Both the position numbers and the translations under genes were made by a program. 64,000 bases of DNA from positions 1 to 64,000 of the forward strand of contig JAGOVA010000002.1 of assembly GCA_018061005.1 (NCBI GenBank), read 5' to 3'. The notes beneath the pieces were generated by a model. The model saw nothing but the letters and a program-made list of their open reading frames with translations, was not told the DNA's origin and did not search any database. Below are positions 9,258 to 39,392 of this stretch, piece by piece (the stretch's first letter is position 1; the number at the start of each line of letters is the position of its first letter). Origin of the DNA: Sterolibacterium sp. GTDB taxonomy: Bacteria > Pseudomonadota > Gammaproteobacteria > Burkholderiales > Rhodocyclaceae.

Positions 9258-12489
<3,232 letters not shown>

Positions 12490-13671: not shown

Positions 13672-15348
13672 ATGCTGCGCCGTCTGTACATCCGCGACTT
13701 CGTCATCGTTGACCGCCTCGAACTCGAATTCGACGCCGGCTTCACCACCCTCACCGGTGAAACCGGTGCGGGCAAATCCATCCTCATCGACGCGCTCTCT
13801 CTCGCCCTGGGCGAACGTGCCGAAACCGGCTGCGTGCGCAATGGTGCAGAACGCGCCGAAATCAGCGCCACCTTCGATCTGCCATCCGCTCCAGCCCACC
13901 CGCTGACCCGCTGGTTGCACACCCATGATTTCGCTGCCGATGGCGAATGCCTGCTGCGTCGCATCGTCGAAACCAATGGCCGCTCACGCGCCTACATCAA
14001 CGGTGCCCCCGCCACCCTCACGCAACTGCGCGAAGCCGCCGAATTCCTCTGCGACATCCACGGCCAGCACGCCCACCATTCCCTGATGCGCGCCGAAGCC
14101 CAGCGCGAACTACTCGACCAGCACGCCGGGCTGACCGCACTAGCACACGAAACCAGCGAAAAATACCGTCACTGGCAACACCTGCAAAACGCACTGGAAA
14201 ACGCCGAACGTGACATCGCCGCCACCCTGCGCGAACGCGAATCGCTCGAATGGCAAGTCAAAGAACTACAAACCCTCGCCTTTGAACCCACCCAATGGCA
14301 AGAAGACACCCAGGAACACCGCCGCCTCGCGCATGCCGCCAGCCTCATCGAAGGCGTGGGCAGCAGCCTCGCCCAACTTGAAGACGACGACCAGGCACTC
14401 AGCCCCCAGCTCGACCAACTCATCCATCGCCTGCACGATCTCCTCGAATACGACCACGAACTGACCGAAACCCTCGAACTCCTCGGCAACGCCCAGATCC
14501 AGCTCCAGGAAGCCGGCCACGCCCTGCGCCACTACCAACGGCGGCTCGACATCGACCCGCAACGTCTGAGCGAACTCGAAACCCGCATCGCCAGCGTCAC
14601 CCAGATGGCACGTAAACAGCATGTCAGCCTCGACGAACTACCCGGGCTGCTGAGCCGCCAGCAAGCACGTCTCGACGAACTCACCCTGCTCACCGACAGT
14701 GCCGAGCTCGCCCGGCAAGCCGCCGCCGCCCAGGCCGAATACCTCACCGTCGCCCAACAACTCACCCAAGGCCGCCACCACACCGCCCAACAACTCAGCC
14801 AGCAAATCACCGCCGCCATACAACAACTGGCCATGAGCGGCGGCCGCTTTGAAATCCAGCTCACCCCGCTGGCCAGCGGCAACGCACACGGCCTCGAAAC
14901 CATCGAATTCCAGGTCACCGCCAATGCCGGCCAACCCCCGCGCGCCATCGCCAAAGTCGCCTCCGGCGGCGAACTCTCCCGCATCGGCCTGGCCATCCAG
15001 GTCATCGCCAGCCAGGCCACGCAAACCCCCACCCTGATCTTCGACGAAGTTGACGTCGGCATCGGTGGCCGCGTCGCCGAAATCGTCGGCCGCCTGCTGC
15101 ACGACCTCGGTCGCAGCCATCAAGTCCTCTGCGTCACCCATCTCCCGCAAGTCGCCGCCTGCGCCGACTCGCAATGGAACATCGCCAAAGAAGAACACAA
15201 CGGCCACACCCTCTCGCACGTCACCCCCCTCGACCACCCCGCCCGCATCAACGAAATCGCCCGCATGCTCGGCGGCGTCAAAATCACCGAAACCACCAAA
15301 CGCCACGCCACCGAAATGCTCGAAAACCCCATGGGGTCAGGTCTTTAA
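13672..15348 (+). CDS. recN: DNA repair ATPase RecN, C-terminal tail supplied by a repeat arm
   Basis: 558 aa, an SMC-like protein acting in double-strand-break repair. The N-terminal LYIRDFVIVDRLELEF and Walker A GETGAGKS (about 29-36) are followed by a long central coiled coil. VASGGELSRIGLAIQV is the ABC signature and TLIFDEVDVGIGGRVAE the Walker B/D-loop. The conserved C-terminus ITETTKRHATEML is present. The last residues, PMGSGL, and the TAA stop are encoded by the left arm of a 65-bp palindrome (15331-15395), so the native stop has been replaced. The enzyme should still work because all conserved motifs lie upstream. Confidence 0.95.
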   Translation: MLRRLYIRDFVIVDRLELEFDAGFTTLTGETGAGKSILIDALSLALGERAETGCVRNGAERAEISATFDLPSAPAHPLTRWLHTHDFAADGECLLRRIVETNGRSRAYINGAPATLTQLREAAEFLCDIHGQHAHHSLMRAEAQRELLDQHAGLTALAHETSEKYRHWQHLQNALENAERDIAATLRERESLEWQVKELQTLAFEPTQWQEDTQEHRRLAHAASLIEGVGSSLAQLEDDDQALSPQLDQLIHRLHDLLEYDHELTETLELLGNAQIQLQEAGHALRHYQRRLDIDPQRLSELETRIASVTQMARKQHVSLDELPGLLSRQQARLDELTLLTDSAELARQAAAAQAEYLTVAQQLTQGRHHTAQQLSQQITAAIQQLAMSGGRFEIQLTPLASGNAHGLETIEFQVTANAGQPPRAIAKVASGGELSRIGLAIQVIASQATQTPTLIFDEVDVGIGGRVAEIVGRLLHDLGRSHQVLCVTHLPQVAACADSQWNIAKEEHNGHTLSHVTPLDHPARINEIARMLGGVKITETTKRHATEMLENPMGSGL

Positions 15349-15395
15349 TTATCACATTTTGTCAAAAAATGTGATAATTAAAGACCTGACCCCAT
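15331..15395. repeat. Perfect palindrome of the RAYT-linked repeat family (recN/RAYT junction)
   Basis: Two 30-nt arms (15331-15360 and 15366-15395), exact reverse complements, separated by GTCAA. The left arm begins ATGGGGTCAGG and ends TTATCACATTTT. It encodes the end of recN and its stop codon, and the right arm ends 12 bp before the RAYT start codon. Confidence 0.97.
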
Positions 15396-15407
15396 TAAGG
15401 AAATCGC

Positions 15408-16253
15408 ATGGCACGCCCGCTCAGGCTCGAATTTCCCGGTGCGCTGTATCACGTCACCTCACGCGGCAACGCGCAACAGGCGATTTTTCTGGATGACGAT
15501 GACCGCACCTCGTTTCTCGAAGAACTCATCCGCACCATCCAACGCTTTCACTGGATCTGCTACGGCTACTGCCTGATGGACAACCACTACCATCTGATCC
15601 TCGAAACCCCCGAAGCCAATCTCTCACGCGGCATGCGCCAGCTGAACGGCATCTACACCCAACGTCACAACCACCGGCACACCCGGGTCGGCCATGTGTT
15701 TCAAGGGCGTTACAAAGCCATCCTTGTCGAACGCGACAGCCATCTACTCGAACTGGCGCGTTACGTCGTCCTCAACCCGGTGCGCGCCGGCCTATGCGCC
15801 ACCGCCGAAGCGCACCCCTGGAGCAGCTATTGCGCCACCGCCGGGCTGACCGACTGCCCCACCTGGCTCGCCGCAGAACGCCTGCTGGAACACTTCGGCA
15901 CACACCGCGCACAAACCCTCCCGGCATATCAGCAATTCGTGCTCGAAGGCCAGGCATCCCAGCCCTGGAAACAACTCAAAGGACAAGTCTTTCTAGGCAG
16001 CGAAGGCTTCATCCACCGCATGCAAGCACTTGCCCAACAACCCGGCAACCCCGAAGAAATCCCCAGCCCCCAACGCCACGCCGGACGCCCCGCACTCGAC
16101 AACCTGTTCCCCAGCACCCCCAAGCCCGACAAAGCCACCCGCAACCAGGCCATCCGCCTGGCCTGCCTCGAACACGGCTACAGCTTCACCGAAACCGCCC
16201 GCCACACCGGCCTGCACTACACATCGATCAGCAGGATCGTCAACGAAACCTGA
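15408..16253 (+). CDS. REP-associated tyrosine transposase (RAYT, Y1/IS200-like)
   Basis: 281 aa. The N-terminus (MARPLRLEFPGALYHVTSRGN) is typical of TnpA_REP proteins. The HUH pair is HYH in CLMDNHYHLILE (about residues 60-62). GHVFQGRYKAILVE and the candidate nucleophile Tyr in LARYVVLNPVRAG (about residue 119) follow. A C-terminal extension (RLACLEHGYSFTETARHTGL) looks like a helix-turn-helix found in the larger RAYTs. These single-strand nucleases act on REP palindromes. Here a perfect palindrome of a family with many copies in the window sits immediately upstream, so this is the best candidate for the enzyme that recognises it. AAGG lies about eight bases before the ATG. Confidence 0.92.
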   Translation: MARPLRLEFPGALYHVTSRGNAQQAIFLDDDDRTSFLEELIRTIQRFHWICYGYCLMDNHYHLILETPEANLSRGMRQLNGIYTQRHNHRHTRVGHVFQGRYKAILVERDSHLLELARYVVLNPVRAGLCATAEAHPWSSYCATAGLTDCPTWLAAERLLEHFGTHRAQTLPAYQQFVLEGQASQPWKQLKGQVFLGSEGFIHRMQALAQQPGNPEEIPSPQRHAGRPALDNLFPSTPKPDKATRNQAIRLACLEHGYSFTETARHTGLHYTSISRIVNET

Positions 16254-16301
16254 AACCCTGAGAATCCCAACTATTCAATCCCTGGAAACCCCAGCCACTC
16301 C

Positions 16302-16452
16302 CGTCATTCCCGCGCAGGCGGGAATCCATAACCTGCGAGCCCCACGGCGCGAGGCTGGCTCCCCGCCTGCACGGAGATGACTCACGTTGCTGACCATTCT
16401 TGCCGATCAGGCATTTGCACCCAAAATGTGATAATTAAAGACCTGACCCCAT
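16302..16452 (+). repeat. Composite repeat copy 1 (REP palindromes plus single arm)
   Basis: A ~151-bp element: GC-rich palindrome, AACCTGCGAG linker, a second hairpin (CCCCGCCTGCACGG), TGCTGACCATTC, and a terminal arm ending GACCTGACCCCAT. Nearly identical copies are at 16917-17066 and 18003-18153, all followed by CTTT. Confidence 0.92.
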
Positions 16453-16454
16453 CT

Positions 16455-16601
16455 TTTTGGATCGAACAGGAAGAAGAACGCAGTCGTCTGACTCATGAAG
16501 CACTCGAAGATGTCGATACCGGCCATGTCATCGATCATCAAGCCGTGCAAGCCTGGGCCGATAGTTTGAACACAGACCATCCGCTACCGATACCGCGATG
16601 A
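16455..16601 (+). pseudogene. Truncated antitoxin remnant (ribbon-helix-helix/CopG-type, parD-like)
   Basis: The open frame reads FWIEQEEERSRLTHEALEDV then DTGHVIDHQAVQAWADSL and ends LPIPR, stopping at 16601. The C-terminal half resembles antitoxins of the RHH family paired with ParE/RelE toxins (VIDHQAVQAWADSL is characteristic). The N-terminal DNA-binding domain, about 45 residues, is missing: the arm of composite repeat 1 ends at 16452 and the homology begins at 16455. The stop codon overlaps the ATG of the following toxin remnant, the normal arrangement for such operons. No promoter or start codon of its own is seen. Likely non-functional. Confidence 0.7.
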
Positions 16602-16877
16602 TGGAATTGAAGTGGGGCCAGCAAAGGGCTATCCGATCTGGCTCGACTGCATGATTTTCTGGCATCAGTGAATCCGGCGGCAGCGGCACGCATCGTCCGG
16701 TTGCTAACGGCTGCACCGTCAAGCCTGCGTGGCAACCCGCGGATCGGCGAGCGCCTGGAAGAATTCGAACCACGCGAGGTGCGTCGCATCTTCATCGGCA
16801 ACGATGAGATGCGCTACGAAATTCAGAACGACACCATTTACATCCTGCGCATCTGGCATACCCGTGAAGATCGGTAA
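16601..16877 (+). pseudogene. Frameshifted ParE/RelE-type toxin remnant
   Basis: Starting at the ATG at 16601 the frame reads MELKWGQQ and then leaves the family sequence. If one G is removed from the GGGG run at 16614-16617, it reads MELKWASKGLSDLARLHDFL and continues through ASVNPAAAARIVRLL to YEIQNDTIYILRIWHTREDR at 16877, a full ParE/RelE-superfamily toxin of about 91 aa. The single-base insertion therefore inactivates the gene. The Arg/Trp-rich C-terminus is intact. It is paired with the truncated antitoxin directly upstream, so both partners are broken. A programmed shift is possible but less likely given the decayed antitoxin. Confidence 0.75.
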
Positions 16878-16916
16878 ACCCAATGAGGTCACCCCATCAG
16901 CCATTCCCGTCACTCC

Positions 16917-17066
16917 CGTCACTCCCGCGCAGGCGGGAATCCATAACCTGCGAGCCCCACGGCGCGAGGCTGGCTCCCCGCCTGTACGGGGACGGCTCAC
17001 GTTGCTGACCATTCCTGCCGATCCGGTATTTGCACCGAAATGTGATAATTAAAGACCTGACCCCAT
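16917..17066 (+). repeat. Composite repeat copy 2
   Basis: Same structure and orientation as copy 1, with scattered substitutions (for example ACTCCC instead of ATTCCC in the first palindrome). The terminal arm ends at 17066, five bases before the zeta-kinase stop codon. It separates the parDE remnant from the zeta pair. Confidence 0.92.
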
Positions 17067-17070
17067 CTTT

Positions 17071-17688
17071 TCACGATGGCTCGCGGCCATACGGAAGCGT
17101 CTCGACGACCACCTGTGTCCAGTCGTGGATCGCCTCGTAGACCTTCACGATCTCGCCCTCAACCGTGCGGAAAAGCAGCTTGGGTTCGTCGCCATCCACT
17201 GAGTTGTCGTAGACGTAGGCTCGATCCGCGAATGCAGCTGCTGCTGCGCAGTTCGCGATGGACTTGGAATACCGGGAAATGATCTTGGGAATAGGGACAT
17301 CGTGGCCGCCCTCCATAACGCGCTGCGTTACGCGAGCCGCGTTGATGGATGGGTGGTCTGTGCCCACGAAGAAGAGACGGATGAAGTAGCCCTCATCCTT
17401 GGCACGCTTGATGAAGTCTATCTTATCTGATGCGGACAGCACGCTCTCGAAAGCAATACTTTCACGCAAACGCAAGCAGCGCTCACGCTCGGCCTCGGCG
17501 TGCTTGGCCGCAGCCATCACGGCCTCGTGGGAGTTCCAGTCCCCGTAGACATCGCGGGCGATATTGTCGGGGTTGATGTAGGTGCAGCCCTCGATCCACT
17601 TGTGCTGCAACACCTTGGTCGTAAGCGATGTCTTGCCCGAGCCATTCGGCCCGGCGACGACGATCAGGGTAGGGCGTTGCCCCGTCAT
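17071..17688 (-). CDS. Zeta-toxin-family P-loop kinase
   Basis: 205 aa from MTGQRPTLIVVAGPNGSGKT, whose GPNGSGKT is the Walker A (about residues 14-21). YINPDNIARD, ESIAFESVLSASDKIDF, and KIISRYSKSIANCAAAAAFA followed by DRAYVYDNS match the zeta/COG4185 family. Relatives phosphorylate UDP-sugar precursors of peptidoglycan or other small molecules, and several are toxins. The start is placed at 17688 because the upstream gene stops with an ATGA overlap there. An intact, tightly coupled two-gene unit bounded by composite repeats suggests an imported toxin-antitoxin module. Some members of this family are not toxic, so the toxin call is inference. Confidence 0.82.
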   Translation of the reverse strand: MTGQRPTLIVVAGPNGSGKTSLTTKVLQHKWIEGCTYINPDNIARDVYGDWNSHEAVMAAAKHAEAERERCLRLRESIAFESVLSASDKIDFIKRAKDEGYFIRLFFVGTDHPSINAARVTQRVMEGGHDVPIPKIISRYSKSIANCAAAAAFADRAYVYDNSVDGDEPKLLFRTVEGEIVKVYEAIHDWTQVVVETLPYGREPS

Positions 17689-17891
17689 GCGGCCGTAGCG
17701 ACCGCACGCGGACACGACAGGTGGTAGCGCGAGCGCACTTCGGCCACCTGCTTGTGCAAGGTGTGCATCAGCGCACTGTTGGCGACCGTGGCCTTGGCGC
17801 GAGCCTCGGCTACCACGCTTTGCATCAGGATTTCAAGCTGCTCGTCGGAGGGTTCCCGCGAGCAGTCCAGCAGATTGACCTTTGCATTCAT
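17685..17891 (-). CDS. Putative antitoxin partner of the zeta-type kinase
   Basis: 68 aa, MNAKVNLLDCSREPSDEQLE..., with a strong AAAGGAG ribosome site nine bases before the ATG. It overlaps the kinase start by four bases (ATGA), implying translational coupling. The middle section (EILMQSVVAEARAKATVANS, then ALMHTLHKQVAEVR) is predicted helical, as expected for a small antitoxin that blocks the kinase. No DNA-binding motif is obvious. Short proteins of this kind commonly precede COG4185 kinases, but the specific family is not certain. Confidence 0.7.
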   Translation of the reverse strand: MNAKVNLLDCSREPSDEQLEILMQSVVAEARAKATVANSALMHTLHKQVAEVRSRYHLSCPRAVATAA

Positions 17892-18002
17892 GGCCGGGCT
17901 CCTTTACATGCCGAGAGAATACAAATATGCGCCTTCGCCCACAATGTGTCAATCATTGGAGTCAAAATGAAATCGGGTCCTCCCGTCATTGCTCCCCACT
18001 CC

Positions 18003-18153
18003 CGTCATTCCCGCGCAGGCGGGAATCCATAACCTGCGAGCACCCCGGCGCGAGGCTGGCTCCCCGCCTGCACGGGGACGGCTCACGTTGCTGACCATTC
18101 CTGCTGATCAGGTATTCCCACCCAAAATGTGATAATTAAAGACCTGACCCCAT
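18003..18153 (+). repeat. Composite repeat copy 3
   Basis: Third copy of the ~150-bp composite, same orientation as copies 1 and 2, ending in the conserved arm and CTTT. It lies between the zeta pair and the fliC promoter, and so marks the right edge of the toxin-antitoxin patch. The rest of 17892-18284 holds the promoter of the antitoxin gene (not identified) and the fliC promoter. Confidence 0.92.
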
Positions 18154-18188
18154 CTTTCCATTTTTTCATCTTTTTTTGCCGCTTTGCC

Positions 18189-18215
18189 TCAAGTTTCCAA
18201 AGCCGGGGCCGTTAC
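18189..18215 (+). promoter_or_regulatory. Sigma-28 (FliA) promoter of fliC
   Basis: TCAAGTTT, an 11-bp spacer, then GCCGTTAC; the flagellar consensus is TAAAGTTT-N11-GCCGATAA. It lies about 70 bases before the fliC ATG, giving a leader of about 60 nt. Confidence 0.82.
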
Positions 18216-18284
18216 CTGAATCAAAGGCGGCGACCAATTAACGCCTTGACCGTGTAACTCTCTGACAAATAAAGGAGAATCAAA

Positions 18285-20111
18285 ATGGCCTCAGTTATCA
18301 ACACCAACATTGCGTCGCTCAACTCGCAACGCAATCTGTCCACCTCGCAAAACTCGCTGGCGATGTCGCTCCAGCGTTTGTCTTCCGGTCTGCGGATCAA
18401 TAGCGCCAAGGACGATGCGGCCGGCATGGCGATTTCGTCGCGGATGTCTTCGCAAATCAATGGCTTGAATCAGGCTGCGCGGAATGCCAATGACGGTATC
18501 TCGCTGGCGCAGACGGCTGAAGGTGCGCTGGGTGCTGTTTCTGACAACCTGCAGCGCATCCGCGAACTAGCCGTGCAATCCGCCAACGCCAGCAACAGTG
18601 CCTCTGACCGCGCCGCGCTGAACAACGAAGCCACCCAGCTGATCAACGAAATCCAGCGTGTGGCCACGACGACCAGCTTTAACGGTGTCAATCTGCTCGA
18701 CGGCACCTTCACTTCGCAAACCTTCCAGGTGGGGGCGAACTCCGGCCAGACCATCAGTGTTGACAAGATCGCCAGCGCCAAGTCCGATGCACTCGGTGTC
18801 GGTGCCAGCACCAGCTACGCCTCCACGCAAAACGGCGCAGCAGTCAATGGCAAGGGTCTGAGCACGGGTGATCTCGCCATCAACGGCGTCAATGTCGGTG
18901 CCACGTCGAGTGACGGCGTTTCCGCCTTCGGTGGTCGCACCAGTGCCCTTGCCGTAGCAAATGCCATCAACGCGGCCAACACCGGGGTCACCGCCACGGT
19001 CAATACCACCACACTGACCGGCACCGCCGCAACCGGCTTTGCTTCGGCCATTGCCACTGGCACGGTCAAGATCAACGATATCGACATCGGTGCGATTGCT
19101 GCTGCAGGCACCGCAGTGGAGCGTGGCGGCCAGATGACCGCAGCCATCAATGCCAAGTCCTCGCTCACCGGGGTGACCGCGTCTTTTGACAACACCACCG
19201 GCGCTGTCGCACTGACCGCCGCCGATGGCCGTAACATCTCGGTGTCCAACAGTGCTGCGGTTACCCGCGCCATCTCTGGCCTGGGTGTGGGTTCTGATGT
19301 CACCACCAACACCACGCTCGACCAGAAGCTCAACAGCGGCTGGGCTTCCGCCACCATATCGGCCAATGCGACCAGCATCGCAGCCGGTGATCTTTCGATC
19401 AACGGCGTCAGCATCGGCGCAGTTACCGCTGGCGGCACTCCCGCCGCACAAACCACCGCACTCGCCACCGCGATCAATAGCGTCACCAGCAAAACCGGGG
19501 TTACAGCCACCATCAACGCAGCAGGCACAGGCTATTCGCTGACCTCCTCCAATGGCGCCCAGATCGAGGTTCATCTGGCGGGTGCTCTGGTCTCTTCAGG
19601 TGTTTCGCCTGCCACCAACGCATCAGACTTCGGCCTGACTGCCATGACGGTGTCCAGCCGCACGGTGACCACCTACTCCTCCGTGAATCTGAGCAGCACG
19701 GCCAGCACCGGCTTGACGGTTTCTGACGTCGCTGGCACGGGTGCAGGTGCTAGCGGCCTGACGGTCGGCAACACAGCCGCCACACTGACCGCCGCCTCCG
19801 GGGTGTCGAAGCTTGATCTCACCACCGCCGCCGGTGCCTCCAGCGCCCTCAGCGTGATCGACTCGGCACTGAACCAGATCAACAGCTCGCGTGCCTCGCT
19901 GGGTGCCATCCAGAACCGCTTCAGCTCGGTGGTGACCAATCTGCAGACGACCTCGGAAAACCTCTCTGCCTCGCGCAGCCGCATCATGGATACCGACTTC
20001 GCCTCAGAAACCGCCAACCTCTCGCGTGCCCAGATTCTGCAACAAGCAGGTACGGCGATGCTGGCACAGGCCAACTCGATGCCGCAGTTGGTGCTGAGCC
20101 TGCTGAAGTAA
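18285..20111 (+). CDS. fliC: Flagellin
   Basis: 608 aa filament subunit. The N-terminal D0/D1 region is canonical ([60 protein letters not shown]). The C-terminal D1/D0 ends with [20 protein letters not shown] and QLVLSLLK. The middle (about 170-500) is an extended variable domain with repeated Ala/Thr/Gly-rich units ([12 protein letters not shown]..., [17 protein letters not shown]...) of the flagellin_IN type. It is secreted through the flagellar type III apparatus and polymerised under the FliD cap. Ribosome site AAAGGAG. A sigma-28 promoter lies upstream. It is somewhat longer than the ~500 aa common in betaproteobacteria because of the repeats. Confidence 0.97.
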
Positions 20112-20145
20112 TCGTCAGGCTGAGTCGTAAAATTCAGTAAAACCG

Positions 20146-20181
20146 CTGCGGCGGGCGTCCCGAAAGGGCCGTCCGCCGCAG
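20146..20181 (+). terminator. Stem-loop downstream of fliC
   Basis: CTGCGGCGG at 20146-20154 pairs with CCGCCGCAG at 20173-20181, with an inner CCC-GAAA-GGG hairpin. No U-tract follows, so it may stabilise fliC mRNA or terminate only partially. It lies in the fliC-flaG gap. Confidence 0.6.
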
Positions 20182-20203
20182 GTACAGAAGAAAGGGGAAG
20201 ACC

Positions 20204-20590
20204 ATGTCCATCCAGCCTGTCGCCACCCCCGGCGCATCCGCCCAGGCCTATGCAGAACAACCCGCCCGCAGCATCGCGCCGCGTGCCGATACTGCGTCCC
20301 TGACACCCAACGCACCGCCCACTCAGGTCGCCTCCGCCGCCTCTGCGACTGCCCCCAGCATCAAGCAGGTACAAGAAGCCGTTCAAAAAACTCAAGAGTT
20401 CCTCCAGAACAAGGCCAACAACCTGGTTTTTTCGCTCGACAAAGACTCCGGCGAAATGGTCGTCAAAGTGATCGATGCCCACACCGACGAGGTGATCCGC
20501 CAGATCCCCTCCAGAGAAATGCTCGAACTCGCCCACTCGCTCGAAGAATTCCAGAACACACACGGCGTGTTGCTCAAAAGCAAAGCCTGA
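20204..20590 (+). CDS. flaG: Flagellar protein FlaG
   Basis: 128 aa. The first 50 residues are Ala/Pro-rich and disordered. The rest is the FlaG domain: FLQNKANNLVFSLDKDSGEM, VVKVIDAHTDEVIRQIPS and EMLELAHSLEEFQ. FlaG proteins influence filament length in several polar flagellates; biochemical function is not settled. AAAGGGG precedes the ATG. It lies between fliC and fliD, as in Pseudomonas-type loci. It keeps its own TGA stop 12 bases before a RAYT-linked palindrome. Confidence 0.93.
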   Translation: MSIQPVATPGASAQAYAEQPARSIAPRADTASLTPNAPPTQVASAASATAPSIKQVQEAVQKTQEFLQNKANNLVFSLDKDSGEMVVKVIDAHTDEVIRQIPSREMLELAHSLEEFQNTHGVLLKSKA

Positions 20591-20602
20591 AAAACAACCC
20601 CC

Positions 20603-20665
20603 ATGGGGTCAGGTCTTTAATTATCACATTTTTCAAAAATGTGATAATTAAAGACCTGACCCCAT
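20603..20665. repeat. Perfect palindrome of the RAYT-linked family (flaG/fliD gap)
   Basis: Two 31-nt arms, 20603-20633 and 20635-20665, exact reverse complements around a single C. Same arm sequence as at 15331. It lies upstream of the fliD sigma-28 promoter. Confidence 0.97.
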
Positions 20666-20700
20666 TTGTTTTGTTCGTTCTTAGTTCTTCATTTTTCGGC

Positions 20701-20727
20701 TACAGTTTTTTCCAGCATGGCCGATAA
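20701..20727 (+). promoter_or_regulatory. Sigma-28 (FliA) promoter of fliD
   Basis: TACAGTTT, an 11-bp spacer, GCCGATAA: one mismatch to the TAAAGTTT-N11-GCCGATAA consensus. It is 34 bases before the fliD ATG and would also serve fliS and fliT. Confidence 0.9.
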
Positions 20728-20760
20728 TAGAGACATCCACGTTCCAGACAGGTGATCGCC

Positions 20761-22173
20761 ATGGCCTCGACTCCCGCTCTTTCATCCCCCGGCTTGGGCT
20801 CCGGCCTTGATGTCAATGGGCTGGTGAGCAAGCTCATGTCAGTAGAGCAACGCCCACTGGCCGCGCTGAATACCAAAGAGGCCGGTTATCAGGCCAAGCT
20901 TTCGGCCTTTGGCTCGTTAAAAGGTGCGCTGTCTTCGTTGCAAACGGCGGTTGGCACACTGACTTCATCAAGCACCTTCACTTCGCGCACGGCGTCAGGC
21001 TCTGACCCCACCGTCTTGACGGCCACTGCGGCAAACTCGGCCGCCGTGGGTAGCTATGCGGTCAATGTGACCCAGCTCGCCAAAAATCTGACGATCCGCA
21101 GCGACACCGCCTATGCGGCGATTACCGACACCTTCAACACCGGCTCACTCGACATCACCGTCGGCGCAACCACCAAGACGGTGACGATCGACAGCACCAA
21201 TAACACCCTGGACGGAATCCGGAACGCCATCAATGCTGCCAGCGCCGGTGTGACCGCCACGATCGTCAATGATGGTTCCACCAACCGTCTGGTTCTGACC
21301 GCCGGCAATACCGGTAGTGCCGGCGCTTTTACCGTCGCGGCCACAGACGCTGGTTCTGGCGGCACGAATGTACTGACCAACCTGGCCTACGCCGGGGGCG
21401 CGGGTGTGGCAGGGGCAACGCTACGCATGCAGCCAGCAGACGACGCTCAACTCAGCATTAATGGTTTGTCGGTCACCCGCTCGAACAATACGTTCAGTGA
21501 TGTAATTGAAGGCTTGAGTTTCAGTCTTTCAAAAACGGGCACATCCAATGTTACGGTCAGCCGAAATACGTCCAGTATTTCCAATGCACTGAACGGTTTC
21601 ATCAAAGCCTACAACGACGTCAACAAGATGCTGCATGACACCACGGCCTTCAACGCCAGCACCGGCAAGGCCTCCATCCTGACGGGTGATGGTGCGGTTC
21701 GGAACATCGGCTCACAGCTCAAATCCATCCTTGGCGCGCAGGTCAGCGGGCTGAGTGGCGGCGTGTCGTCACTCTCGGATCTGGGGGTCTCGGTGCAGAA
21801 GGATGGTTCGTTATCCGTCAATGGCACCAAGCTACAGGCCGCGCTGGATAACCCCGCAATGGATGTGGTCGGCCTGTTCACCTCGAACACGTCCGGCAAC
21901 ACCGGCATCGGTCGACGGTTCAGCGATGCGTTGAGCGGCATGATCGGTCCGACAGGTATCATCAGTGGCAAAACAGAGGGTATCAACAGTTCGATTGCCG
22001 ATATCGGCAAACAGCGCAGCGCCCTGCAGGTCAAACTGACCTCGATCGAATCCCGCTACCGTAGCCAATTCACCGCGCTCGATACCCTGATGTCAAAAAT
22101 GACACAAACCACAAACTACCTTACCCAACAGCTTGACCAGCTTGCCAAACAAACCCCGGCAAATAACAGGTAA
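20761..22173 (+). CDS. fliD: Flagellar hook-associated protein 2 (filament cap)
   Basis: 470 aa from MASTPALSSPGLGSGLDVNG, chosen over an in-frame GTG nine bases upstream because AGGTGA is correctly spaced to it. FliD forms the cap that folds flagellin at the filament tip. The FliD N domain (GLDVNGLVSKLMSVEQRPLA), a flagellin_IN segment in the middle, and the FliD C domain (LNGFIKAYNDVNKML..., QKDGSLSVNGTKLQAAL, LTSIESRYRSQFTALDTLMS) are all present, with a coiled-coil C-terminus. It is followed by fliS and fliT. Confidence 0.96.
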   Translation: MASTPALSSPGLGSGLDVNGLVSKLMSVEQRPLAALNTKEAGYQAKLSAFGSLKGALSSLQTAVGTLTSSSTFTSRTASGSDPTVLTATAANSAAVGSYAVNVTQLAKNLTIRSDTAYAAITDTFNTGSLDITVGATTKTVTIDSTNNTLDGIRNAINAASAGVTATIVNDGSTNRLVLTAGNTGSAGAFTVAATDAGSGGTNVLTNLAYAGGAGVAGATLRMQPADDAQLSINGLSVTRSNNTFSDVIEGLSFSLSKTGTSNVTVSRNTSSISNALNGFIKAYNDVNKMLHDTTAFNASTGKASILTGDGAVRNIGSQLKSILGAQVSGLSGGVSSLSDLGVSVQKDGSLSVNGTKLQAALDNPAMDVVGLFTSNTSGNTGIGRRFSDALSGMIGPTGIISGKTEGINSSIADIGKQRSALQVKLTSIESRYRSQFTALDTLMSKMTQTTNYLTQQLDQLAKQTPANNR

Positions 22174-22209
22174 GCCGTCTATCGCCTGAAAGAGATAAAG
22201 GAGCCCATC

Positions 22210-22644
22210 GTGTTCTCTTCGAGTGGAAAAGCAGCGCAGGCCTACGCCCGGGTGGGGGTTGAAACCGGCGTGGTGGCCGCAAGCCCGCACAAGCTGATCG
22301 TCATGCTGTTTGACGGTGCATTACTCGCCATTACCAACGCCCGCCAGCAGATGGCGGCGGGGCAGGTTGCGGAAAAGGGGACGTCGATTTCCCGCGCCAT
22401 TGACATCGTCAGCTGCGGCCTGCGTGCCAGCCTGGACAAATCCGCCGGGGGCGAGCTGGCTGAAAATCTTGATGCGCTGTATGGCTACATGATTTCACGG
22501 CTGTTGCACGCCAACCTGCAGAACGACCGGCAGGCACTGGAGGAAGTCGGCAACCTGCTGAATGACATCCGCAGCGCCTGGCAGCAGATTGCCGATGACC
22601 CCGCCGTGCGCGGCACGCAGAACCCAGCCGCGCAGGTGGCCTGA
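22210..22644 (+). CDS. fliS: Flagellin export chaperone FliS
   Basis: 144 aa with a GTG start preceded by AAAGGAG. FliS wraps the C-terminal helix of flagellin and keeps it unfolded for export. Family features are QAYARVGVETGVVAASPHKL, IVMLFDGALLAITNARQQ, ISRAIDIVSCGLRASLDKSA and ENLDALYGYMISRLLHANLQ. It lies 36 bp after fliD and 33 bp before fliT on the same strand, probably one transcript from the fliD sigma-28 promoter. Confidence 0.95.
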   Translation: MFSSSGKAAQAYARVGVETGVVAASPHKLIVMLFDGALLAITNARQQMAAGQVAEKGTSISRAIDIVSCGLRASLDKSAGGELAENLDALYGYMISRLLHANLQNDRQALEEVGNLLNDIRSAWQQIADDPAVRGTQNPAAQVA

Positions 22645-22677
22645 GCCGTTGGCTGGAAGGTGGAGGCTGGAGGGCTG

Positions 22678-23070
22678 ATGAACACTCAATTTGCCGACGA
22701 CCGGTTGCCGCTTTATCAGGCCATGTCTGAGCTGACGGGACAAATGGCCGCTGCCGCGCAGGCAAACGACTGGGATGCCCTCGTTACTCTGGAAGAGCAA
22801 CTCGCCCCCGTGCGCGAGCGTTTGCTGCACAGCCCCACTGCCGCTTTGCACGCCCAGGCGCTTACCGCCGAAAATGCCGAGGCTATGTTGGCATTGATCC
22901 AAACCATACAATCTCACCACGAAACCATCAGCACCTGCGTGCAGCCACACCTGGATGACCTGCGCCAGCTGATGAACGACACCGCCTCCCGCCGCCGCAT
23001 CGACGCGGCCTATGGGGCGGAAAACCCAATGGATCCAATGGGGTCAGGCTCAATGGGGTCAGGTCTTTAA
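22678..23070 (+). CDS. fliT: FliT-like flagellar chaperone with repeat-derived C-terminus
   Basis: 130 aa from the ATG with GGAGGG upstream. It is an all-helical protein: YQAMSELTGQMAAAAQANDW, LVTLEEQLAPVRERLL and ALIQTIQSHHETISTCVQPH fit the FliT fold, and its place after fliS supports this. FliT is the export chaperone for FliD. The C-terminus reads PMDPMGSGSMGSGL: the final MGSGL and TAA come from a RAYT-linked arm at 23053, preceded by a second partial copy of the same arm at 23038-23049. The gene has therefore lost its original end, in a region that is poorly conserved in the family. Confidence 0.72.
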   Translation: MNTQFADDRLPLYQAMSELTGQMAAAAQANDWDALVTLEEQLAPVRERLLHSPTAALHAQALTAENAEAMLALIQTIQSHHETISTCVQPHLDDLRQLMNDTASRRRIDAAYGAENPMDPMGSGSMGSGL

Positions 23071-23310
23071 TTATCACATTTCAGGTGGAAATGCCTGATA
23101 CGCAAGTATGGTCAGCAGCGCGAGTCTTCCCCGCGCAGGCGGGGATCCAGCCTCGTCCAAAGGTGCTCGCAGCTTATGGATTCCCGCCTGCGCGGGAATG
23201 ACGTGAGTAAGGGGGGGGGTGAGTGGGGAGTGGGGTTTGCTGAATGCTGAATGCTTGCTAACGTTCATTGCCAGCCGGGTACAAATATGATAATTAAAGA
23301 CCTGACCCCA
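23053..23310. repeat. Two-armed composite element between the two fliT-like genes
   Basis: The left arm (23053-23081) and right arm (23283-23310, one G-to-A change giving AAATATG) are inverted. Between them are two GC-rich palindromes (near 23128-23147 and 23180-23200) and a core that is the reverse complement of the composite repeats at 16-18 kb, plus a G-rich stretch (GGGGGGGGGTGAGTGGGG, about 23209). Together with flanking bases it fills the 315-bp gap between the genes. Confidence 0.9.
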
Positions 23311-23385
23311 AGGTTGCCCCTTGGTAGAAATAGCCCTCAAACCCGCCCTTCATTTCGCAAATCTGCGAAGGCTTCGGCCGTTACC

Positions 23386-23715
23386 ATGCTGCCTATGCCT
23401 ACTTCGCAGATTACGCTTTACGAAGAGATGAACGCGCTCTCTTCCCGCATGGCCGCAGCCGCACGCGCCAGCGACTGGGAAACCCTGAACCGCCTGGCGC
23501 GTGCCGTGGCGGCCTTGCGTGATTCTCTGCCTGAAAATGACACTAGCTTGAGCCATGCCGAAATGCAGCAGAAAGCCGTGTTGATCCAGCGCATCCTCGA
23601 CGACGATGCGGAAATCCGCCGCCATACCGAGCCGTGGATGGAGCCGGTTTGCCGTTTTCTTGGGCAAGAGAGCCCGCAGCGCGCGCCTTTACGCCGGGCG
23701 CAACGCGCCGGTTGA
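23386..23715 (+). CDS. FliT-like protein, second copy
   Basis: 109 aa from MLPMPTSQITLYEEMNALSS (an internal Met at 23395 is the alternative start). The helical pattern parallels the upstream fliT product: YEEMNALSSRMAAAARASDW aligns with YQAMSELTGQMAAAAQANDW. LIQRILDDDAEIRRHTEPW aligns with its third helix. It is thus a likely tandem paralogue, now separated by a composite repeat. The C-terminus ends RAPLRRAQRAG and shows no MGSGL tail. Role inferred: flagellar export chaperone for an unidentified late substrate. Confidence 0.65.
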   Translation: MLPMPTSQITLYEEMNALSSRMAAAARASDWETLNRLARAVAALRDSLPENDTSLSHAEMQQKAVLIQRILDDDAEIRRHTEPWMEPVCRFLGQESPQRAPLRRAQRAG

Positions 23716-23827
23716 GGCCGACGGGAGCGTCGAGGCCTCTCATGCGCGCCGCCCCTGATCTTGTTCGCGCCTTCATGCCGCTCGCGGTGGATGCCGCCTG
23801 CTTGCGATGGCCGCACAGGGGGGCATC

Positions 23828-25330
23828 ATGCCGCTGATCCCAGCCGATGTCGGCCTGCGTTTGCGCCTCGACAACGAGTTGCAGACGCAGCAGGTTGCGC
23901 CAACCAAGGAGATCGCGGCCGATCTGCCACGCTTGCAGGCAGGGCAGGTGTTTACGGCACAAATCCGCGATGCGTTGCCGCAGAACACTTATCTGGCACT
24001 GGTGGGCGGCAAGCAGGTCACGCTGTCGCTGCCGGAAAACGTCAAGAGTGGCGATGTGCTGGAACTGGTGGTGGTCGAGCAGACGCCGAAGGCCATCATC
24101 GCGGCCTTTGCCGATCCTGCCAAAGCCGGCAAGGCGGCCAGCCCCAACACGACCCTCAGCCAGACCGGGCAGATGCTGCGCTCGATTCTGATCAACGAAG
24201 GCGAAACGCCCGAAGCCGCGCCACTCAACCGGGGGCAGCCGCTGCTGGCGAATCCGCCGAAAAATGGCGCGGAACTCGCCCCCGCGCTGCAAAAGGCCGT
24301 CACACAAAGCGGCCTGTTTTATGAGGCGCATCAGGCGCAATGGGTCAGTGGCAAACTGCCGCTGGCCAATTTGCGGCAAGAGCCGCAGGGGCAGGTTCCT
24401 GTGCCTGGCCAAACGACCCTCGCCAATCAAGCCGCCCAGCCCGCCCCGGCCAGCGTAGCCCAGCCCGCACTGACACAGGCGGGCGCACTCCCCTTGGCAG
24501 CCAGCGCGCAGGCCGCCGCACCATTCACCACGCCTGCCACGCCGGGTGCCGGGATGCCGATGCCTGCCCCCGGTACCCCGGCCACCGCCGCGCAAACTTC
24601 GCCCGGCGGCTTGCCTGCCGCTGCCCTGCCACAAACGACCACCCCGCCCACACTACCCACGCCCGCCCCGTTGAATAACGGCGTGATGCAAAGCCTGCTA
24701 CTCTATCAAAACAATCAGGCACAGTCGCCCGCGTCGCCCGAACAAGCCAGCAATTCCACGCAAAACTCGCTACATGCCCCGCCTGGCGCACATGCAACGC
24801 AAACCAGCAGTGCTGCGGATCAACCCGCCGCAGGCAGTCTGGCCGCACAGAGCACGCCCGCCACCCCGTCTGACGAAGCCACCCGCAACAACGCACACGC
24901 CAGCACGCTGGCTTCCACCCAGATGAAACCCATGCCCGCGCTGCCGGATGAATTGCGCACGCTGGTGCAACAACAACTCGACGCCGCTGGCACGCAGCGG
25001 CTGCTCTGGCACGGCGAAGTATGGCCACAACAACAAATGCACTGGCAGCTTGAATGGCAGAACCAGGGTTCAGGCAACAACGCTGAAGAACCCGAGCCAT
25101 GGCAAACCACCCTGCGCCTGAGCACCCCGCGACTGGGCACGCTGGAAGCCGCATTACACCTAGGGCCTGCCGGTGTGCGGATCGCCCTGAATACCGACAC
25201 CGACCCCAGCGCCAGCGTCATGCGCGCCCATGCCGCCGAGCTTGAATCCGCGCTCTCGGCCGCTGGGGTTCCCCTGCGCGGCTTCAGCGTTCGCCATACA
25301 CCGACTGAATCTGACGAAGGTGAGCCCTGA
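23828..25330 (+). CDS. FliK-like hook-length control protein (second FliK-type gene)
   Basis: 500 aa from the ATG with AGGGGGG upstream. The N-terminal ~110 residues are folded (VFTAQIRDALPQNTYLALVG, VTLSLPENVKSGDVLELVVV). The middle (about 200-370) is an Ala/Pro/Gln/Thr-rich unstructured region like the ruler of FliK. The C-terminal ~100 residues (WQLEWQNQGS..., WQTTLRLSTPRLGTLEAALH, LESALSAAGVPLRGFSV) match the Flg_hook domain that touches FlhB. A separate canonical fliK lies at 42187. The next gene encodes an FlhB cytoplasmic-domain homologue, so a FliK-FlhB-type pair is formed here. Confidence 0.75.
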   Translation: MPLIPADVGLRLRLDNELQTQQVAPTKEIAADLPRLQAGQVFTAQIRDALPQNTYLALVGGKQVTLSLPENVKSGDVLELVVVEQTPKAIIAAFADPAKAGKAASPNTTLSQTGQMLRSILINEGETPEAAPLNRGQPLLANPPKNGAELAPALQKAVTQSGLFYEAHQAQWVSGKLPLANLRQEPQGQVPVPGQTTLANQAAQPAPASVAQPALTQAGALPLAASAQAAAPFTTPATPGAGMPMPAPGTPATAAQTSPGGLPAAALPQTTTPPTLPTPAPLNNGVMQSLLLYQNNQAQSPASPEQASNSTQNSLHAPPGAHATQTSSAADQPAAGSLAAQSTPATPSDEATRNNAHASTLASTQMKPMPALPDELRTLVQQQLDAAGTQRLLWHGEVWPQQQMHWQLEWQNQGSGNNAEEPEPWQTTLRLSTPRLGTLEAALHLGPAGVRIALNTDTDPSASVMRAHAAELESALSAAGVPLRGFSVRHTPTESDEGEP

Positions 25331-25456
25331 CCCCATGACATTATGAACACCATGAACAGCATAGCGACCTCCCCGCGCTTCCCACCTGGCATCCACCGGC
25401 GACAAGCAGCGCGTTCAGCGCGTCCCGTGTCGCACGCGTAACATTCACGCTAAACC

Positions 25457-25759
25457 ATGGCCGCCAACCCGAAAAACCCCGAAACGGACGAGCGCGCCCT
25501 CGCCCTGGCACTCGCCTACGCACCCGGCGACATGGCACCGCGCGTCGTCGCCAAAGGGCGTGGCCTGATCGCCGAAGAAATCATCCGCCGCGCCAACGAA
25601 GCCGGGGTATTCGTACACGAATCCCCGGAACTGGTCACCCTGCTGATGCAATCCAACCTGGACGACCACATCCCCCCGCAACTCTACGTCGCCATCGCCG
25701 AACTACTCGCCTGGATTTATCGCCTGGAGCAGGAAAAACCCATGGGGTCAGGTCTTTAA
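25457..25759 (+). CDS. FlhB C-terminal-domain homologue (FlhX-like) with repeat-derived tail
   Basis: 100 aa lacking any membrane segment. It corresponds to the part of FlhB after the NPTH autocleavage site: ERALALALAYAPGDMAPRVV, AKGRGLIAEEIIRRANEAGV, VHESPELVTLLMQ, then IPPQLYVAIAELLAWIYRLE. Stand-alone proteins of this kind exist beside flagellar genes and can substitute for the cleaved FlhB fragment in the export gate. The last residues PMGSGL and the TAA stop are from a RAYT-linked arm (25742 onward). The natural end would be expected just after RLEQ, so the domain is complete. It follows the FliK-like gene by 126 bp. Confidence 0.82.
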   Translation: MAANPKNPETDERALALALAYAPGDMAPRVVAKGRGLIAEEIIRRANEAGVFVHESPELVTLLMQSNLDDHIPPQLYVAIAELLAWIYRLEQEKPMGSGL

Positions 25760-26075
25760 TTATCACATTTTCAGCTAACTTGATGATTTATAACGCGTGA
25801 GAACAAGCAATGAACGTCAGCAAGCATCCGGCAGACCACACGCTCCGTTCCTGATATCCCCGCGCAGGCGAGGATCCAGCAATAGCGCGCTCTTCGGCTG
25901 CACCATGGATTCCCGCCTGCGCGGGAATGACGGGACATTTGCGGGAATGACGGTGCATTTGAATCGTGTTCATACGCCAACTCTGGGGGACGCGTCATGC
26001 CTGCGATTGCCGTGGGGCGTGGCTGCAATACCTTCGAACCAGGGCAAAATATGATAATTAAAGACCTGACCCCAT
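25742..26075. repeat. Two-armed composite element between the FlhB-like gene and ycgR
   Basis: Left arm 25742-25771, right arm 26046-26075 (with the AAAATATG variant), inverted. The core carries two GC-rich palindromes (about 25859-25875 and 25911-25932) and AGCAATGAACGTCAGCA, a segment also present at 45992-46008. It occupies essentially all of the gap 25760-26126; no gene is seen in it. Confidence 0.9.
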
Positions 26076-36686: not shown

Positions 36687-38327
36687 ATGGCCGATACGGC
36701 ACAGACCTTGCCCTTCTCGCTGAATACGCTGAACGAGCTGACGCCCAACCAGAAACTGGGCGGCATCGTGGCTATTGCCATGGCGATCGCCGTGCTGGTC
36801 GGTGTCTGGACGTGGAGCAAGAACGTCGAATACAACGTGCTGTTCTCCAACATCTCCGACCGCGACGGTGGGCAGATCGTGGCTTCACTGCAGCAGATGA
36901 ACGTGCCTTACAAGTTCTCTGAAGGCGGCGGTGCCATTCTTGTTCCGGCAGCGCAGGTGCATGATGCGCGGCTGCGTCTGGCCTCGCAGGGACTGCCCAA
37001 AGGCGGACTGGTCGGTTTCGAGATCATGGAAAATCAGAAACTGGGCGCCAGCCAGTTTCTGGAACAGGTGAATTACCAGCGCGCACTCGAAGGCGAACTG
37101 GCGCGTTCGATCCAGAGCCTGCAGGCAGTACAGGCCGCACGGGTACATCTGGCGATACCCAAAACCTCCGCCTTTCTGCGCGACGAACAAAAACCCACAG
37201 CATCGGTGGTGCTCAACCTGTTTCCTGGCCGCGCCATCGATGCCAGCCAGGTCGCGGGCATCGTGCATCTGGTGGCCTCCAGCGTGCCGCAACTGATGCC
37301 CACCCACATCAGCGTCATCGACCAGAACGGCAATCTGGTGTCACAGAACGCAGACAATACGCGCGATCACGGGCTGGACCCGACGCAGCTCAAATACCTG
37401 CGTGATCTGGAACAAAGCACCATCCGCCGCATCGAGGCCATTCTTGAGCCGGTCGTCGGCCCCGGTAATGTCCGCGCCCAGGTGGCTGCCGATGTAGATT
37501 TCACACAAACCGAGCAGATGGCGGAAACCTACTCGCCCAACCCGCCGCCCAATGCCGCCATCCGCAGCCAGCAAACCGCCGAAGCGGGCAGTGCCACCCC
37601 CAGCGCCAGTGGCGTGCCGGGCGCACTGTCGAACCAGCCGCCCGTGCCGGCCATCGCGCCGATCACCACGCCACCGCTAACCGGCGCAGCAAACACCGCC
37701 AATCCGCCCGGCGCCGCCAGCAACGCCAACAGCAGCCGCAATGCCACCACCAATTACGAACTCGACAAGACCGTCAAACATACGCGTAGCGCCTCCGGCC
37801 TGATCAAGCGGCTGTCGGTGGCCGTGGTGATCAACCAGAAGAAGAGCACACCCGACAAGGAAGGCAAGACCAAGAGCCTGCCGCTCTCGCCGGATGAAAT
37901 CGAGCAAGTGCAGAATCTGGTGCGTGAAGCCATGGGCTACAACAAAGAGCGCGGCGATACGCTCAATGTGGCCAATGTTTCCTTCAACGCCGGTGAAAGG
38001 GAAGTCATCGCCGAAACACCGCTGTGGAAGTCACCTGAATTCATCGCCATGGCGCGTGAAAGCGTCAAATATCTGGCCGTGCTGATTGCCGCCATGCTGC
38101 TCTGGAACAAGCTGATCAAACCGTTGTTCGCAGCCTGGATGGGGGCTGCCGAAGAACGGCGACGTGCGCTGGAGCTGGCCAACCAGGCGCAGGAAGTCGT
38201 CCTCGAAACCAGCGGCCCACCCGTGCGCGGCTACGATGACAAACTCGCCGGTGCACGCGATCTGGTCAAGCAGGATCCCAAGGTGGTGGCCAACGTCATC
38301 AAGGAGTGGGTAGGCGGCAATGAGTAA
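36687..38327 (+). CDS. fliF: Flagellar MS-ring protein FliF
   Basis: 546 aa. FliF assembles the MS ring in the inner membrane. A first membrane segment lies at about 26-48 (GGIVAIAMAIAVLVGVWTW). The ring-building motifs follow (FSNISDRDGGQIVASLQQMN, GLPKGGLVGFEIMENQKLGA, YQRALEGELARSIQSLQAVQ). A Pro/Ala/Asn-rich region spans about 285-350. The second segment is near 453-475 (SVKYLAVLIAAMLLWNKL), and the C-terminal FliG-binding tail ends ARDLVKQDPKVVANVIKEWV. It overlaps fliG by eight bases. Confidence 0.97.
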   Translation: MADTAQTLPFSLNTLNELTPNQKLGGIVAIAMAIAVLVGVWTWSKNVEYNVLFSNISDRDGGQIVASLQQMNVPYKFSEGGGAILVPAAQVHDARLRLASQGLPKGGLVGFEIMENQKLGASQFLEQVNYQRALEGELARSIQSLQAVQAARVHLAIPKTSAFLRDEQKPTASVVLNLFPGRAIDASQVAGIVHLVASSVPQLMPTHISVIDQNGNLVSQNADNTRDHGLDPTQLKYLRDLEQSTIRRIEAILEPVVGPGNVRAQVAADVDFTQTEQMAETYSPNPPPNAAIRSQQTAEAGSATPSASGVPGALSNQPPVPAIAPITTPPLTGAANTANPPGAASNANSSRNATTNYELDKTVKHTRSASGLIKRLSVAVVINQKKSTPDKEGKTKSLPLSPDEIEQVQNLVREAMGYNKERGDTLNVANVSFNAGEREVIAETPLWKSPEFIAMARESVKYLAVLIAAMLLWNKLIKPLFAAWMGAAEERRRALELANQAQEVVLETSGPPVRGYDDKLAGARDLVKQDPKVVANVIKEWVGGNE

Positions 38328-39315
38328 CGAGGGCATCGAAAAAGGAGCCATGCTGCTGCTGTCGCTGGGCGAAGATCAGGCCGCCGAGGTGCTGAAGCAC
38401 CTGACGCCCAAGGAAGTGCAGAAACTCGGCCACGCCATGGCCGAAATCAAAGGCGTGCCGCGCGACCGCATCGAAGCCGTACTCGACGAACTCGAATCCC
38501 ATACCGCCAAAGGTACTGGCGTTACTGCCGACGAAGCGATGATCCGCAACATGCTCACCAAGGCACTCGGCGACGATCGTGCATCCAACCTGATTTCACG
38601 CATCCTGCAAGGCGACGACACCGCCGGCATCGAAAGCCTCAAGTGGATGGATCCGGGCACGGTCGCCGACATGATCCGCAACGAGCATCCGCAGATCATT
38701 GCCACCATCCTCGTGCATCTTGAATTCGACCATGCGGGCGACATTCTCAAGCTATTCACCGAACGTCTACGCAACGATGTCCTGCTGCGGATCGCCACCC
38801 TGGACGGAGTGCAACCGCAGGCCTTGTATGAACTGAACGAAGCCCTGACGCGCGTGCTGGCCGGTGCCAAGTCCATCAAGAAAACCGCCATGGGCGGCGT
38901 GCGCCATGCCGCAGAAATCCTCAACTTCGTCGGCCAGGCGCAGGAAACCGCCATCATCGACAATGTGCGCGAATACGATCCTGACCTGGCACAGAAAATC
39001 CTCGACGAAATGTTCGTCTTCGACAACCTCATGGATGTCGATGATCGCGGCATCCAGTTGCTGCTGCGCGAAGTACAGTCCGATTCGCTGATCGTCGCCC
39101 TGAAAGGTGCCACCCCCGAACTGCGTGAGAAAATCTTCAAGAACATGTCGCAGCGGGCGGCCGAAATGCTGCGCGAGGATCTCGAAGCCAAAGGCCCGGT
39201 GCGCCTCTCGGAAGTCGAAGGCGAACAAAAAGAAATCCTCAAGATCGCCCGCCGCCTGGCCGACGAAGGCCAGATCCAGCTCGGCGGCGGCGGCTCAGAA
39301 GATGCGTTCATCTAA
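38320..39315 (+). CDS. fliG: Flagellar motor switch protein FliG
   Basis: 331 aa, the normal size. FliG links the MS ring to the C ring and carries the torque-generating charges. The N-terminal domain (KGAMLLLSLGEDQAAEVLKH), the EHPQ-type motif (NEHPQIIATILVHL) in the middle domain, and the C-terminal domain (FVFDNLMDVDDRGIQLLLRE, then LKGATPELREKIFKNMSQRA) are complete, ending in DAFI. It starts within the fliF coding sequence. The stop lies 12 bases before a RAYT-linked palindrome that separates it from fliH. Confidence 0.97.
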   Translation: MSNEGIEKGAMLLLSLGEDQAAEVLKHLTPKEVQKLGHAMAEIKGVPRDRIEAVLDELESHTAKGTGVTADEAMIRNMLTKALGDDRASNLISRILQGDDTAGIESLKWMDPGTVADMIRNEHPQIIATILVHLEFDHAGDILKLFTERLRNDVLLRIATLDGVQPQALYELNEALTRVLAGAKSIKKTAMGGVRHAAEILNFVGQAQETAIIDNVREYDPDLAQKILDEMFVFDNLMDVDDRGIQLLLREVQSDSLIVALKGATPELREKIFKNMSQRAAEMLREDLEAKGPVRLSEVEGEQKEILKIARRLADEGQIQLGGGGSEDAFI

Positions 39316-39326
39316 CCCTCTACAAC

Positions 39327-39392
39327 GGGGTCAGGTCTTTAATTATCATATTTTTCATTTTGAAAATGTGATAATTAAAGACCTGACCCCAT
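39327..39392. repeat. Near-perfect palindrome of the RAYT-linked family inside the fli operon
   Basis: Left arm from 39327 (one change, ATCATATT for ATCACATT), right arm 39363-39392 in inverted orientation, with a short AT-rich loop. It lies entirely in the 93-bp gap between fliG and fliH, within an otherwise tightly packed operon. Confidence 0.95.

Follow-up and report, generated by a model that had tools for sequence, protein, structure and literature searches.

How three different genes of one genome come to end in the same residues is the question raised by a stretch of 64,000 nucleotides from Sterolibacterium sp. (positions 1 to 64,000 of contig JAGOVA010000002.1, assembly GCA_018061005.1; the whole of this stretch is referred to as the window). 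In the window, the open reading frames (ORFs) of recN (13672-15348), fliT (22678-23070) and an FlhB-like gene (25457-25759), all on the forward strand, run into copies of a short repeat arm and end with ATG GGG TCA GGT CTT TAA, that is, with MGSGL and a stop codon at 15346-15348, 23068-23070 and 25757-25759, exactly as the original prediction had it. In recN the arm contributes the last six codons (15331-15348). The FlhB-like protein ends ..EQEKP-MGSGL, and FliT, whose gene carries two consecutive arm starts, ends ..AENP-MDP-MGSGS-MGSGL. We consider it probable, at roughly two in three, that these endings result from insertion biased towards gene 3' ends combined with selection on the reading frame, MGSGL being a harmless by-product.

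The arm, GGGGTCAGGTCTTTAATTATCACATTTT, starts 14 times in the window when up to two mismatches are allowed, five times on the forward and nine times on the reverse strand (expected, 0.05). The earlier count of three gene-closing arms among five forward arms was right but omitted the nine reverse arms. The genome, which is 93% complete, holds 47 exact copies of a 14-mer of the arm, as compared with none of the reversed control, and 51 copies of the 28-mer arm with up to three mismatches. Arms were counted in 17 fetched stretches of this genome; there, 52 arms form 32 units, i.e. 20 facing pairs and 12 single arms, and 49 of the 52 begin with GGGGTCAG.

For each of the 52 arms we followed the reading frames that lead into it from the flanking sequence, frame c being the one that reads xTG GGG TCA GGT CTT TAA. 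Past the first G of the arm the median tail is 4 codons in frame c versus 15 in frame a and 17 in frame b. In frame c, 13 ORFs of 80 codons or more run into an arm. Nine of them are supported by Pfam or NCBIfam (RecN, FliT, FlhB-like, ComEC, a long-chain acyl-CoA synthetase, PIN, DHFR, Gpx and TrmL) and four are not. Frames a and b gave 24 rows, of which 14 were tested; eight of the ten remaining rows overlap supported genes. The sole supported gene among the tested rows is TolC/OEP in frame a, whose family match stops about 95–100 residues upstream of the arm. Hence nine of ten supported genes use frame c (p = 3.6e-4), and the inequality of frames at gene ends that had been foreseen is borne out. 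The accompanying claim that homology stops just before the tail holds for RecN (NCBIfam match to residues 1-551 of 558), FliT (Pfam match to 23-112 of 130), the FlhB-like protein (Pfam Bac_export_2 above the cut-off; TIGR00789 match to 13-92 of 100, below the model cut-off), DHFR, TrmL and, on TIGR02540, Gpx, in all of which the family match runs to the tail or nearly so. It is less exact for ComEC, whose match ends 29–39 residues before the protein end, for PIN (about 29 residues) and for the acyl-CoA synthetase, whose profile is 14 residues short.

Frame c also prevails elsewhere. A scan for GGGGTCAGGTCTTTRATT, representing arm forms that keep the frame-c stop, returned at least 104 stretches, to which four viral contigs were added; all results for these foreign arms hold among the matches listed, which contain 157 arms. 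The 14 frame-c ORFs of at least 90 codons in the 104 stretches, from unrelated genomes, were all tested, and eight have family matches. Seven of these are supported, namely a BadF-type ATPase, an MFS transporter, a response regulator, a dCTP deaminase, PhnW, P450 and MetX, while the eighth, a SagB-like protein, is weak, its match being below the cut-off and cut short. PhnW, MetX and P450 end 4–7 residues beyond the profile match. The foreign rows in frames a and b number 21; 16 were tested, a seventeenth (L165 b) duplicates the ORF of one of these, and the four left out are L114 b, L119 b, L177 a and L198 a. Among the 17 of 21 covered in this way, one lies above the cut-off, L192, with its arm inside a long OmpA/TPR gene. 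No Pfam match was found for L114 a, L122 a and b, L125, L157, L174 or L207 a and b. When own and foreign genes are pooled, 17 of 18 supported genes are in frame c (p = 9.6e-8), or 17 of 19 (p = 6.2e-7) if L192 is counted. Long ORFs by themselves were dropped as evidence, four of 13 own and six of 14 foreign frame-c ORFs having no family match. Several of the foreign loci without a Pfam match have conserved sequence in common beyond the 18-mer and look like matches within genes rather than elements.

Control arms were taken in two sets. The first comprised 40 regions, chosen by hand and not at random, with 72 arms that mostly have no quick frame-c stop. These gave 19 ORFs that reach 90 codons. 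Tests of all 19 supported two, a transposase gene (L416, frame a) and nifV (L391:1364-2503). The latter enters, in frame a, the arm variant ..TTTCATCATTCGTAA, which has a TAA there, and its tail WGQVFHHS follows right after the end of homology. As nifV ends in the very frame in which this variant carries its stop, the frame of entry appears to follow the arm. A second set of 37 arms, from which the own locus was left out and which includes several of the same places, yielded ten ORFs of this length. One of these was again nifV; among the nine others, all tested, only recG was supported. No Pfam-supported gene ending in frame c was found among the control arms (72 + 37, several of them the same places).

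Where the stops had been before the arms arrived was asked of orthologues of seven genes, with ComEC and PIN left out; d denotes the number of residues by which an orthologue ends beyond (positive) or short of (negative) the protein's own last residue ahead of the five-residue tail. For TrmL, d is 0 in 19 of 22 orthologues (one partial hit left out). For RecN, it is 0 in eight, -1 in seven and +1 in one of 24, which places 16 of 24 within one codon, and the other eight are longer; among the three same-genus genomes d is 0 in G001 and the other two proteins are longer. DHFR has d = +1 in nine of 22 orthologues, and Gpx in eight of 16 (loci L327-L342 including paralogues; L343 fell below the score cut and L344-L353 were left out). 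Two of three same-genus relatives of the FlhB-like protein have d = 0, with the endings ..EQERP* and ..EQAQS*. Four relatives of FliT (..YGSNDDD, ..GGDSDSSN, ..GLPGPG and ..YGANS) are 5–9 residues shorter because the fliT end has two arm starts. In their closest or commonest forms, the orthologues of five of the seven genes (RecN, TrmL, FlhB-like, DHFR and Gpx) thus stop at the start of the tail or within one codon of it. Since they do so, the MGSGL tail is, judging from these sequence comparisons, derived from the repeat, as had been suggested, and the arm is placed on the old stop.

The units are also unevenly placed with respect to genes, flanking genes being defined by a simple hexamer gene caller. 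Eighteen of the 32 units overlap the 3' end of a facing gene or lie within 12 nt of it, compared with 14–20% of permissible sites under the null (p 2e-8 to 8e-6); the TolC unit and a doubtful call of 44 residues were not scored as near. After removal of the nine overlaps the figures are 9 of 23 versus 9.3% (p 1.2e-4), and nine units lie 3–12 nt past intact stops. Near gene 5' ends there are three of the 32 units versus 10.5% of permissible sites. Promoter avoidance may be responsible for part of the clustering at 3' ends. The excess at gene 3' ends and the dominance of one frame uphold that part of the original reading; the clustering itself may come from target choice by the transposase or from survival of insertions.

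Taking these data together, we propose that insertions gather at gene 3' ends, where a copy landing on or just before the native stop would remove it. The host would usually keep such a copy only if the arm restores a stop at once, i.e. after five residues here as compared with a median of 15–17 codons in the other frames, and copies landing out of frame would probably mostly be lost. Insertion followed by such a filter accounts for the dominant frame, for the match to old stops and for the frame switch at nifV, with recG and TolC as exceptions.

Several observations weigh against this model. TolC/OEP reads through its arm in frame a. recG (L106:1044-1676) enters, in frame b, an arm of the form TTTACTTTTGC that provides a quick stop in none of the three frames; the tail so acquired, GVRSLLLHLYPSSCE, is about 15 residues long. 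The filter is therefore not a strict one, as this insertion was kept despite its long tail, and the case lowered our confidence in the model from 0.72 to 0.67. The DHFR orthologues other than those with d = +1 are longer, and so are most members of the FlhB-like family (median +9 of 21). Compared with its same-genus match in G002, the acyl-CoA synthetase lacks about 15 residues (two distant matches give +1 and +10), and the gene at L166 appears to be cut inside its domain. Of eight genes in which a displaced stop was sought behind the unit, recN alone has one (TAA), which may belong to the transposase segment and is given no weight here. Finally, the null for the clustering depends on our own simple gene caller and on loci selected for their arms, and has no term for promoter avoidance.

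An alternative view is that the transposase recognises the region of the stop codon and inserts in a fixed register, in which case the enzyme, rather than selection, would determine the frame. Such an enzyme would explain why, in the five genes named above, the arm stands in place of the old stop or of the adjacent codon, and it would fit the outward flanks of the 52 own arms, in which position -1 is T in 92% and position -2 is A in 77%. However, the left target is not fixed beyond (A)T. A fixed register is further weakened by the nine units located 3–12 nt after intact stops, by the arms of the acyl-CoA synthetase gene and L166, which lie further inside the gene, and by the other arm variants, which were entered in frames a (nifV, L391) and b (recG, L106). 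We hold it to be unlikely. Chance coincidence of in-frame endings, for which the family-less long frame-c ORFs of own and foreign genomes might speak, is practically ruled out by the counts of family-supported genes alone, and the old stops seen in orthologues fall at the start of the arm.

Alternatively, the terminal hairpin might be retained for its usefulness, be it as a protector of mRNA 3' ends or as a brake on translation, which would be a real domestication. In its favour, three tight units give very stable RNA folds (-48 to -55 kcal/mol, z about -11), and repetitive extragenic palindromic (REP) sequences of E. coli lying no more than 15 nt from a stop reportedly stall ribosomes and reduce translation (ref. 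17 in the consulted part of PMC12306157). Yet the host genes are mutually unrelated, and the FlhB-like arms are 334 bp apart, its 81-nt end folding not unusually (z 0.6). Moreover, the exact 22-base arm occurs in none of 40 relatives, three of them of the same genus (exact matches only, no genome-wide search with mismatches having been made), and no conserved use is visible. A useful hairpin is thus quite unlikely. The repeat had been described as domesticated into a portable gene terminus; this we do not uphold, as harmless surviving insertions explain the pattern and neither benefit nor conserved use was seen. With a somewhat freer hand one may speculate that ends of TIRYT-type elements (see below) are portable translation terminators whose true integration target is the gene 3' end, and that the hairpin, which begins within the last codons, could tune termination or ribosome release across many unrelated genes, an idea to which we assign a low probability.

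A transposase gene lies next to recN. The gene at 15408-16253 (forward strand) encodes a protein of 281 amino acids with a Pfam Y1_Tnp match of 38.6 bits (cut-off 23) and an NCBIfam REP_Tyr_transpos match of 77.5 bits, just below the cut-off of 80. Its translation contains NHYHL, with the HYH motif, and LARYVVLNP, which we take to be motifs of a RAYT-related Y1 (HUH) transposase. The gene is bracketed by the arms at 15331 (+) and 16452 (-), a layout that recurs in L382, L391, L395 and L409. Within the 17 own-genome stretches the transposase is present in the window only; it or pieces of it were matched in 19 of 108 loci with stop-bearing arms (among the matches listed) and in 12 of 40 control loci, near full-length homologues being 44–56% identical. 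The 13-mer GGGGTCAGGTCTT is found in 87 of 369 genomes of the class, our own included. From sequence and layout, the arms are terminal inverted repeats (TIRs) of an element of the RAYT/TIRYT type (IS200/IS605-like), together with its dispersed non-coding copies. Because the exact 22-mer is absent from the 40 relatives, these copies look recent in the Sterolibacterium lineage; at ten relative loci, allowing up to three mismatches, we found a single partial arm start (L315 in G003).

TIRtrons, as described in the consulted passages of Di Nocera et al. 2013 (PMC3733652), consist of a RAYT-like tyrosine transposase (TIRYT) between TIRs that are unrelated to GTAG REPs and carry the motif GGGGWSAS, here GGGGTCAG. 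The present element shares with them the flanked RAYT-like transposase, the motif, and the dispersal of TIR copies singly and in pairs. It differs in that its arm has an in-frame stop that ends at least nine genes; those passages report no stop donation by TIRs. By description, the present transposase may also fall near TnpAREP subclass 2.1 or RAYT group 1, types with a C-terminal helix-turn-helix that are probably equivalent to TIRYT according to the part of PMC6006769 consulted. Stop donation itself is known from GTAG REPs, convergent copies of which lie mostly less than 20 bp from gene 3' ends in the two species shown in the same passages of PMC3733652. GTAG REPs are also small palindromic repeats that give stops and crowd at gene 3' ends, but their stop is the terminal GTAG tag, whereas here a TAA or TGA within the 28-bp arm provides the stop, the tail has five residues and almost only a single frame is used. 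A GTAG or CTAC tag was found near one of the 52 own arms, which does not make them GTAG REPs. In E. coli, 260 of 496 REPs lie no further than 15 nt from a stop codon (ref. 17, cited in the excerpt of PMC12306157); these, too, are stable palindromes at stop codons, but they are described there by their distance after the stop, whereas here the hairpin starts inside the coding sequence. Our literature search on elements that supply or target stops returned, among the matches listed, only PMC3733652 as bearing on stop donation, and one with the arm sequence no title on bacterial repeats among the matches listed. New here is a TIR/TIRYT family that donates stops, nearly always in one frame, with the old stops located; stop donation and 3'-end crowding by REPs were already published.

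Small mobile repeats of this kind leave a countable footprint in compact genomes, in which the entry frame reads out selection and orthologues reveal the old stop. Annotated proteins ending in xGSGL may have a repeat-derived end, which is relevant to C-terminal tagging, degron studies and orthologue comparison. Were the clustering at 3' ends due to target choice, RAYT-class enzymes with an unusual site preference would be at hand.

As to the arms of the window, the one closing recN belongs to a complete palindromic unit of two facing arms (15331-15395; RNA fold -54.8 kcal/mol, z -11.3), whose reverse arm lies 12 nt upstream of the transposase gene. A single reverse arm (16422-16452, reverse strand) follows 3' of that gene and, with the arm at 15331, encloses it. 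Further entries on the reverse strand are located at 17036-17066 and at 18123-18153, the latter a single arm 131 nt 5' of the gene at 18285-20111. Palindromic units are found at 20603-20665, 12 nt past the stop codon of the gene at 20204-20590, and at 39325-39392, 9 nt past that of the gene at 38320-39315. A terminator scan that counted up to 20 pairs lists no whole unit; by eye, T-rich sequence follows 20665, 16452 and 18153. The TGA stop of fliK lies inside a degenerate reverse arm start (25322-25336; 2 mismatches of 15); this relic may end a fourth gene from the opposite direction, and in three of four relatives fliK stops at a similar position.

Promoter-like pairs (TTATCA .. TGATAAT) occur on both strands inside the palindromes at 15348-15378 and 20620-20648. 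These two units account for six of ten promoter-like rows between 13000 and 26500, and the pair at 15349-15378 (+) faces the transposase gene. Tandem arms or arm starts are present at 23038-23067 and in L110, L128, L130, L149 and L165; several of them repeat part of the left flank as well, as though a new copy had inserted beside an older one. From -9 to -3 the outward flanks of the 52 own arms are rich in A and C; foreign arms have A-rich flanks in this region and no fixed T.

The fliT and FlhB-like genes end in long units, whose arms are 259 bp apart with two CGTC-type palindromes within (23053-23311) and 334 bp apart with one (25742-26075). Together with C24:3059, C71:89535 and C99:4860 elsewhere in the genome, they make up the five pairs, of 20, that exceed 190 bp, and in each of the five the arms enclose a CGTC-type REP or a close variant of it (CGTCATTCCCGCGCAGGCGGGAATCCA). 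Since CGTC REPs are reported, in the literature excerpt at hand, to have no dedicated transposase, the arm pair may be their target or carrier. A cluster of four CGTC-type palindromes at 12171-12370 is tied to no arm, and in 179 kb of own loci eight of 14 such palindromes sit within arm units or at their inner side.

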